This document shows, in pieces, positions 35,612 through 52,340 of a stretch of 64,000 nucleotides of DNA. Made by a program: the position numbers and the translations under genes. This DNA is from Chitinophagales bacterium (lineage in GTDB: Bacteria > Bacteroidota > Bacteroidia > Chitinophagales > UBA10324). The stretch covers positions 1 to 64,000 of the forward strand of contig JACDDS010000006.1 of the NCBI GenBank assembly GCA_013816805.1. Direction: 5' to 3'. The first letter of the stretch is position 1. The number at the start of each line of letters is the position of its first letter. Under the pieces are notes generated by a model. It was not told the DNA's origin and did no database searches. It worked only from the letters and a program-made list of their open reading frames with translations.

Positions 35612-35974
35612 TCACGATAAAGTTACTAAAGTTTCAATTAATTCACTAAAGGCATACCCGAGCTGCACATCAAGTTCATTTGAAAGAAAAGGAATCTGGT
35701 CAAATGAATTTTCAGATATTATGTTGTCTTCTATCCGTGCAAGTATAGGTTCAATTGACGACATGCCCATAAAAACTACCTGAGGTTTTAAAGAATGAGC
35801 AGCTGCTTTTACACCATTCCAATTTCCGGAAGTTGTATGTTTTTTTATGAGCTCCAATTGCTCAGGTGCCGATTCTAAAAACATGTGAATATAATTTACC
35901 ATTTTATTCTGATCATTATGACAGAATTCCCTGAGAAATTGCAGGTTGACCAATTTCATAGTTTTTGTGCTCAT
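35612..35974 (-). CDS. Hpt-domain phosphotransfer protein
   Basis: 120 residues forming a single histidine phosphotransfer domain. The phosphorylated His is probably His60 in GVKAAAHSLKPQVVFMGM, preceded by MVNYIHMFLESAPEQLELI. It would shuttle a phosphoryl group between a hybrid kinase and a receiver. No kinase is encoded in this window; the nearest receiver is the divergent LytTR regulator 433 bases away. Confidence 0.88.
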   Translation of the reverse strand: MSTKTMKLVNLQFLREFCHNDQNKMVNYIHMFLESAPEQLELIKKHTTSGNWNGVKAAAHSLKPQVVFMGMSSIEPILARIEDNIISENSFDQIPFLSNELDVQLGYAFSELIETLVTLS

Positions 35975-36407: not shown

Positions 36408-37100
36408 ATGAAGATCAGCTGTATTGCGGTAGATGATGTGAAGTTGAACCGGGAAGCCATGCTTGATCTTATAAGTTCTGCTGAGTTTATGGAGGTAGTT
36501 GGAAGTTGCACGACTGCCTTGGAAGCATCTACTCTTCTAAAAGATTTACAACCCGATGTTATATTTCTTGATATAGAGATGCCGGGAATGTCAGGCCTTG
36601 AATTAATAAAAACGCTAGTCCATCCGCCCTTAATTGTACTTTCTACTTCACATAAAGAATTTGCTGCAGAAGGATTTGAAATGAATGTTTTTGATTATCT
36701 CGTGAAGCCGGTTACTCACGAGCGCTTTCTGAAATGTGTCAATAAGATATATGAATATTTTAAGAAAAAAAGACCCCTTTCAGGTGATCAAATATTTATT
36801 AAATCAAATAATAAGTTTATAAAGGTGAAGTTGAATGAAATTCTATATGTAGAAGCTATGAGGGATTTCGTGGTTTTATATACAGATAAAGTGAAATTGG
36901 TGACACTTATGAACCTGAAGGAATTTACCACACAGCTGCCTGAAAATCAATTTTTAAGAATTCACCGGTCCTATTTAATCCCGATAAATCGTGTTGAGTC
37001 AATAGAAGGTAATGTGGTGAAAATTCAAAACCATGAAATTCCTATCGGTGAAAGTTATCGGAATAAGGTATTAAATCAATTGTTGGGTAAGGATGATTAA
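36408..37100 (+). CDS. LytTR-family response regulator
   Basis: 230 residues: a receiver domain with the acceptor Asp55 in VIFLDIEMPGMSG and the signature YLVKPV in FDYLVKPVTHERF, followed by a LytTR DNA-binding domain (IFIKSNNKFIKVKLNEILYV, RIHRSYLIPINRVESI). Such regulators usually pair with a membrane LytS/YehU-type kinase, which is not encoded next to it. ubiX follows 22 bases downstream and could be on the same transcript. Confidence 0.95.
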   Translation: MKISCIAVDDVKLNREAMLDLISSAEFMEVVGSCTTALEASTLLKDLQPDVIFLDIEMPGMSGLELIKTLVHPPLIVLSTSHKEFAAEGFEMNVFDYLVKPVTHERFLKCVNKIYEYFKKKRPLSGDQIFIKSNNKFIKVKLNEILYVEAMRDFVVLYTDKVKLVTLMNLKEFTTQLPENQFLRIHRSYLIPINRVESIEGNVVKIQNHEIPIGESYRNKVLNQLLGKDD

Positions 37101-51411: not shown

Positions 51412-51750
51412 TTAATTTATAAATCCTGCATACTTTAGAAAAGAAAATGTTCTTCTCTTTTTCAGGTAATTTAAATCCGATGCATTTGCATATGCCTCAC
51501 GCTCAAAAATAATGTTTAAATAAGCCTGGTGATGAGTTTTATACTTAACCCGGTTGATGAGGTAGTGGGAGAGATATAAAATGTAAAAAGGTATAATCAA
51601 AAGTTCCAGTTCCTGCCGGTGATGGATGAGCTCATGATTTATCAGTACTTTATCCTCTATATAGGATTTTTCTCTTAACAGAATAAAGGGATAAAGCGCC
51701 ATTCCCTGAACGTGTAAGTTTTTGAAGATGATAAAATACGGGTAATGCAA
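51412..51750 (-). CDS. Small HExxH membrane protein
   Basis: 112 residues. NHELIHHRQELELLIIPFYI carries an HExxH motif, the zinc site of many metallopeptidases, directly before a hydrophobic helix; a likely third ligand is Glu85 in FEREAYANASD. Small Bacteroidota proteins of this type are unstudied. It is divergent from the membrane-tethered receiver gene, 71 bases away. Confidence 0.75.
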   Translation of the reverse strand: MHYPYFIIFKNLHVQGMALYPFILLREKSYIEDKVLINHELIHHRQELELLIIPFYILYLSHYLINRVKYKTHHQAYLNIIFEREAYANASDLNYLKKRRTFSFLKYAGFIN

Positions 51751-51821: not shown

Positions 51822-52340
51822 ATGTTTGGTCACCCTAAAGTTGAAATAATGCCGGGCAATTCTTTGGTTCTTTTTATAATTGATGATGATAGCGCTGCTA
51901 TGCATTCATTAAAAAATTTTGTAGAGCGGAAATATCCCGGAATAGAGGTGGCTACTTTTGGGTCCGGAGAAAGTGCTTTGGTGGAATTACATCGTAAGCC
52001 TGATGTAATAGTTTTGGATTATCATTTAAAAAATGAAAAGGAGGAATTAAACGGGATTGAAATATTGAAGCGCATTAAAGATCTATTGCCTCATACGCCC
52101 ATTATTTTTATGTCGGACGACGACCATGAGAATGTGGCTGCAAACATTGTTAAATACGGAGCTTACGATTATATAGTACGCGGTAGCGGAGCTTACCAGA
52201 GATTGGAAATTATGATCAATAATGCTACAGGTCATCTATCATTACACCGGCAGATAAGAGTTCAGCGTATCTTTAACATTGTCTTTATTCTTCTGCTGTT
52301 TATAGCATTTGCTGCCATATTCCTGGATCGTTATTTCTAA
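51822..52340 (+). CDS. Receiver-domain protein with a C-terminal membrane helix
   Basis: 172 residues. Residues about 15-130 form a receiver domain with FIIDDD and Asp66 in VIVLDYHLKNE as the phosphorylation site, IIFMSDDD for the Ser/Thr, and DYIVRGSGA, where the usual conserved Lys is Arg. No DNA-binding domain follows. Instead the protein ends in a hydrophobic helix (IFNIVFILLLFIAFAAIFL, about 150-168), predicted to hold it in the membrane. An alternative start is Met10 or Met11. The gene stands alone; no kinase is adjacent. A membrane-anchored receiver with an Arg substitution is unusual. Confidence 0.82.
   Translation: MFGHPKVEIMPGNSLVLFIIDDDSAAMHSLKNFVERKYPGIEVATFGSGESALVELHRKPDVIVLDYHLKNEKEELNGIEILKRIKDLLPHTPIIFMSDDDHENVAANIVKYGAYDYIVRGSGAYQRLEIMINNATGHLSLHRQIRVQRIFNIVFILLLFIAFAAIFLDRYF

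Follow-up and report, generated by a model that had tools for sequence, protein, structure and literature searches.

Receivers of response regulators are usually regarded as soluble modules whose targets are DNA, enzymes or the flagellar motor, whereas the receiver considered here has as its sole "output" a helix predicted to enter the membrane. It is encoded in a stretch of 64,000 nucleotides from a Chitinophagales bacterium (Bacteroidota; assembly GCA_013816805.1, contig JACDDS010000006.1, positions 1 to 64,000), which as a whole is called the window. The gene, named REC-TM, lies at 51822-52340 on the forward strand and specifies a single-domain response-regulator receiver with a putative C-terminal transmembrane helix (172 aa from the ATG at 51822); the internal ATG at 51849 (Met10; 163 aa) is the probable start and matches the starts of relatives better. 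The open reading frame (ORF) is a genuine gene, and its anatomy, first described in a sequence-only reading, was confirmed. On sequence comparison, the tail is the mark of a membrane-tailed receiver family in the window's Bacteroidota order and not an oddity of one copy. We hold with even confidence that REC-TM is a tail-anchored receiver acting as final acceptor in a phosphorelay that is scattered in this genome, still phosphorylatable but with a switch weakened or uncoupled by Arg120 and Asp99.

The receiver domain covers residues 18-120 (51873-52181, forward strand; PF00072, Response_reg, E-value 3.1e-18, 66.4 bits against a cut-off of 30.2) and was the sole domain of the protein above its Pfam cut-off, which makes REC-TM a single-domain response regulator without output domain by the Pfam criterion, as the sequence-only reading had claimed. 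An AlphaFold2 model built with 21 family members as input displayed a normal receiver fold (mean pLDDT confidence 89, predicted template-modelling score 0.75), and its nearest solved structures in the PDB by Foldseek and VIA-align were receivers, Spo0F among the best, in comparisons that listed receivers only and are uninformative on the tail. The conserved switch Lys of PF00072 receivers is replaced by Arg (R120), and REC-TM is placed in this family on score and fold without a claim to the canonical switch.

Behind the receiver, the hydrophobic segment IFNIVFILLLFIAFAAIFL occupies residues 150-168 (52269-52325, forward strand; 19 residues, Kyte-Doolittle mean 3.04), which agrees with the hydrophobic helix noted earlier. 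It is preceded by HLSLHRQIRVQR with its basic residues and followed only by DRYF, and these flanking residues would fit a receiver on the cytoplasmic side with its tail in the membrane. In the model, a single unbroken helix at residues 124-171 (52191-52334, forward strand; block mean pLDDT 75-96; residues 115-162 in the 163-aa form) links receiver helix alpha5 to the membrane segment, so that both are predicted to form one rod, and the tail is predicted to insert in the inner membrane. The other short receivers of the same genome lacked such a tail in 5/5 displayed cases (best 19-mer mean 1.11; seven regions were fetched, two of which gave no displayed ORF). Relatives elsewhere carry the same helix, about 19 residues long and shortly after alpha5, varied in sequence and constant in hydrophobicity, and for this reason a chance origin of the tail was ruled out. 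The search for such relatives had been proposed in the sequence-only reading, for which their lack of a tail would have counted against a membrane role; the outcome was the opposite.

The family is widespread but little noticed. A receiver match at E 1e-10 was present in 37/60 genomes (own included) and a profile match at E 1e-45 in 63/396 genomes of the order, tailed and untailed receivers pooled. From named genomes, a scan retained 80 loci that by record title come almost entirely from Bacteroidota; one Saccharibacteria and one Rhizobium record among them may be misassigned bins. The genome of Taibaiella chishuiensis, a cultured relative, contains a member of the family (L096). In the first two locus sets, the family model retrieved receiver ORFs of at most 220 aa of which 82 were tailed (75 distinct) and 34 untailed; an ORF was assigned to either group by a hydropathy cut-off of 1.8 within its last 60-62 residues. 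The untailed receivers, with Ser one residue after the conserved switch Ser/Thr (position T+1) in 28/34, include a sister subfamily of about 144 aa, close in sequence and presumably soluble, which keeps the Lys and the acidic site as in the family but has no membrane tail. Members of this kind were seen at L133:4342-4773 and at loci L111, L109, L119 and L135, some of them 3' of a large sensor kinase. A receiver expansion was also observed at L071:5965-7839, where four tandem receiver ORFs (two tailed, two short) lie beside a divergent gene for a histidine phosphotransfer (Hpt) protein. In the open-licence full-text literature we found no membrane-tailed single-domain receiver family; the subscription literature, mostly outside this scope, may describe it.

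As the neighbours of relatives can point to the function of an isolated gene, we turn to the loci around them. In 25 of the 51 tailed loci drawn, several of which are near-identical (e.g. L108, L110, L112), a hybrid histidine kinase (HK) of one cluster is the immediate upstream neighbour in the same orientation; four more loci have the order kinase-Hpt-REC-TM, bringing the tailed receivers behind a kinase to 29/51. Representative kinases have the architecture TPR-HisKA-HATPase-REC-Hpt (877 aa) or REC-HK-REC followed by a separate Hpt, and none of these representatives matched a membrane domain in Pfam. A same-strand Hpt homologue was located within 800 bp of the receiver for 27/45 matches, or 24/45 without three rows added by hand; the 45 receivers are all rows down to E 1.3e-17 with the own genome excluded, and the 60 Hpt rows comprise all to E 7.9e-8 (own genome excluded) and the three weaker rows added for adjoining a receiver. 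Across other genomes, an Hpt match (E <= 1e-8) occurred in 27/28 with the receiver against 3/31 without it (Fisher 2e-12, uncorrected for relatedness and genome size). Because of this adjacency to kinase and Hpt genes and the co-occurrence of Hpt across genomes, the family is a strong candidate for the receiver at which a multi-step relay terminates.

Candidates for the other relay parts were identified in the genome of the window. A 797-aa TPR-HK-REC ORF without Hpt on contig C1 stands out as the match to the relatives' kinase (E 1.7e-115; the next match, 4.4e-60). The closest full relative of the TPR kinase in genome G007, at L213 (G007:C41:27910-30283), is split across two frames by a frameshift or an assembly error. 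Three Hpt matches were obtained genome-wide, two above the cut-off, and the best is a stand-alone 120-aa Hpt protein in the window itself (35612-35974, reverse strand; Pfam Hpt E 8.8e-8), the candidate phosphodonor of REC-TM. The three relay parts are likely present but scattered, and their pairing is what we infer from the relatives.

In many relatives the relay parts are fused or adjacent; here the kinase would be the one on C1, the phosphotransfer protein the one at 35612-35974 and the receiver the product of 51822-52340. The phosphoryl group would pass from His to Asp within the TPR/hybrid kinase, then to the His of Hpt and finally to the Asp of REC-TM, a CheY-like cytoplasmic domain whose last helix, alpha5, would continue into the inner membrane as a single rod. 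Phosphorylation of Asp66 by Hpt would ordinarily reshape the alpha4-beta5-alpha5 face together with the membrane-entering helix and so alter binding at the membrane. We infer phosphotransfer, the output and the consequence of R120. Since relatives adjoin hybrid kinases and Hpt genes, a membrane docking partner working in a phosphorelay is the best fit among the roles offered by the sequence-only reading.

Several observations weigh against a relay that ends on this receiver. No output partner was found, membrane insertion is judged by hydropathy and one model only, and 18/45 receiver matches have no nearby Hpt. In a quick tree, the window gene grouped with receivers of G002, G007 and G005 and of two named metagenome-assembled genomes in a six-row clade (Shimodaira-Hasegawa-like approximate likelihood ratio support 98), and all six are orphans (0/6 adjoin a kinase or Hpt), so that the window gene lacks the family's frequent, though not universal, position beside a hybrid kinase and/or Hpt. 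G002, G005 and G007 hold another tailed receiver besides the orphan one, possibly the partner of Hpt there. Further, the window Hpt lies 16 kb from REC-TM and instead stands beside a LytTR response regulator (36408-37100, forward strand), a place conserved in G007:C56.

This last point leads to the alternative that Hpt serves its LytTR neighbour and that REC-TM is phosphorylated by another kinase of the genome or by a small molecule, for instance acetyl phosphate. The two genes are divergent neighbours both in the window and in G007:C56, the LytTR protein may be the partner of Hpt, and every member of the clade to which the window receiver belongs is an orphan. However, 11/20 of the best homologues of the window Hpt in other genomes adjoin receivers of the REC-TM family, and we consider this alternative unlikely, though well above negligible.

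The second question posed by the locus is whether this copy can still switch. The acidic pair Asp21/Asp22, the acceptor Asp66 and Ser98 are all intact. Asp66 (52017-52019, forward strand) is Asp in 58/58 tailed ORFs, a set that contains only loci from protein and profile searches without a Lys requirement, with identical ORFs counted once. Ser98, the conserved switch Ser/Thr, is followed at T+1 by Asp99 (52113-52118, forward strand), where the same set has Asp in 2/58 and Gly in 43/58. Arg120 (codon CGC, 52179-52181, forward strand), recognised already in the sequence-only reading, replaces the conserved switch Lys, and the window protein is the sole Arg among the 58, the other 57 being Lys. 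The count from the first two locus sets (Lys in 74/75 distinct tailed ORFs) is biased, one of the scan patterns behind it having demanded Lys. A single sequencing error behind R120 was ruled out because CGC differs from AAA/AAG at all three bases.

A DNA pattern specific for Arg, applied to 396 genomes of the order, yielded no tailed receiver with Arg besides the window gene, within the scope of the motif GA[YF]D[YF] with two aliphatic residues after it; the pattern also matched Ser, and its matches in 24/396 genomes, one in each, lay in frame mostly in proteins some 700 aa long that have Ser there. The other five members of the orphan clade have Lys (5/5), and Arg120 is a peculiarity of the window protein and not a family trait. 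An Arg at the switch Lys position was also seen at L237, in a short tail-less receiver (144 aa) with an altered acidic site. The only other Asp at T+1 among the 58 belongs to a second tailed receiver of G002 (G002:C15, L266:3708-4211), which lies directly 3' of an Hpt gene and whose acidic pair is lost (Asn-Thr, in VNTD); it is a degenerate receiver retained beside its own Hpt.

These changes bring in the main rival for this copy, in which R120 and Asp99 lock the receiver in one state and leave a constitutive membrane scaffold, a pseudo-switch with a fixed docking site. The window protein is alone among the 58 tailed ORFs in lacking Lys, both of the altered sites share the Asp at T+1, and the gene has neither kinase nor Hpt adjacent. 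Against a locked receiver stands the retention of Asp21, Asp22, Asp66 and Ser98, and the branches of the window gene (0.78) and its Lys-bearing sister (0.75) are of similar length, which indicates no visible decay, in a tree where the window gene and L003 join between long branches and only every third untailed receiver was included. The non-phosphorylated scaffold foreseen in the sequence-only reading is in our view rather unlikely. The window copy is most likely still phosphorylatable, and we would expect R120 to alter or weaken the switch. According to a passage of PMC3203184, the natural K102R variant of CsrR was unable to signal, while CheY K109R is described there as phosphorylated yet inactive. 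With R120 and Asp99 in place, phosphorylation can probably still occur, but the response is probably changed, weakened or uncoupled.

A phosphate sink, in which the receiver draws off the phosphoryl groups of a kinase or Hpt with no output of its own, would suit a single receiver without output domain and with an intact acceptor Asp. It is improbable since a sink needs no membrane tail, and yet the whole family has retained one, even those relatives in whose representative kinases Pfam showed no membrane domain; here the sequence-only reading had offered a role that leaves the conserved tail unexplained. That the protein is soluble and its tail lies outside the membrane as a helix for packing or a coiled coil, as the tail-less sister subfamily might suggest, is less probable still, given the strong hydropathy of its 19 residues, the basic residues before and only four residues after them, and a hydrophobicity that persists while the sequence varies.

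The phosphorelay with a tailed receiver at its end may represent a wider class in Bacteroidota, in which a TPR-hybrid kinase acts through Hpt on a receiver with alpha5 as a transmembrane rod, and a signal would travel from the cytoplasm to the membrane, opposite to the direction usual in two-component systems. On this view, the copy in the window would be a natural variant with its switch re-set by the Lys-to-Arg change and the Asp at T+1. We put this forward tentatively. The continuity of alpha5 with a membrane helix as sole "output" suggests a relay ending in the membrane, and the tailed family would offer a compact system for asking if a receiver can drive a transmembrane helix. To the old question of the role of the switch lysine, REC-TM of the window adds a natural Lys-to-Arg case.

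REC-TM lies between a gene for a HELIHH protein of 112 aa and a DUF1015 gene, the arrangement with DUF1015 being present also in G002. The 112-aa protein (51412-51750, reverse strand) has a HELIHHRQ motif and hydrophobic stretches and is a possible membrane metalloprotease; it had no Pfam or NCBIfam match, and among the ORFs of the first two locus sets only its self-match was obtained at E <= 10. HELxH proteins occur near REC-TM operons in L103, L108, L110 and L112, with undetectable homology to the one in the window.

Among known systems, the single-domain phosphorelay regulators Spo0F, DivK and CpdR likewise consist of one receiver without output domain. The folds of Spo0F and DivK align with REC-TM by VIA-align at Z 20.2 and 19.3 (root-mean-square deviation 1.3 and 1.4 over 118 and 120 residues), a Spo0F is first in the Foldseek ranking, and the presence of REC-TM relatives in hybrid kinase/Hpt loci resembles the phosphorelays of these regulators. 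In contrast to them, REC-TM has a membrane helix continuing alpha5 and, in the window copy, R120. A cis bond between the switch Lys and a following Pro is named as a hallmark of the receiver fold in a passage of PMC9981736, whereas no row of the REC-TM family alignment (21 rows) has Pro directly after the Lys. REC-TM is also unlike the FATGUY-type Rec-only proteins CpdR, SdrG and MrrA, mentioned in the context of PMC9981736: in place of the FATGUY motif on beta4, its beta4 and next loop read PIIFMSDDD, as judged by eye. PorX of type 9 secretion is also a Bacteroidota receiver protein, and the structures align at Z of about 19 (root-mean-square deviation near 7 with the tail included). However, PorX has about 510-520 residues with further domains, of which the window gene matches the receiver only, and membership was ruled out by an NCBIfam score of 28.4 bits against a cut-off of 300. 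The nearest statement to the REC-TM family in open-licence texts is a sentence of PMC5847659 on archaeal regulators with a membrane-anchored MetOD3 output domain, in which a receiver is likewise joined to a membrane-anchored part, a likeness drawn by description only. The Arg of REC-TM has its counterparts in CheY K109R and natural CsrR K102R, the same change at the same position in the passage of PMC3203184 cited above. CheY K109R is a laboratory mutant and CsrR K102R a strain variant of proteins that normally have Lys, whereas the Arg of REC-TM is the genomic state of a membrane-tailed orphan.
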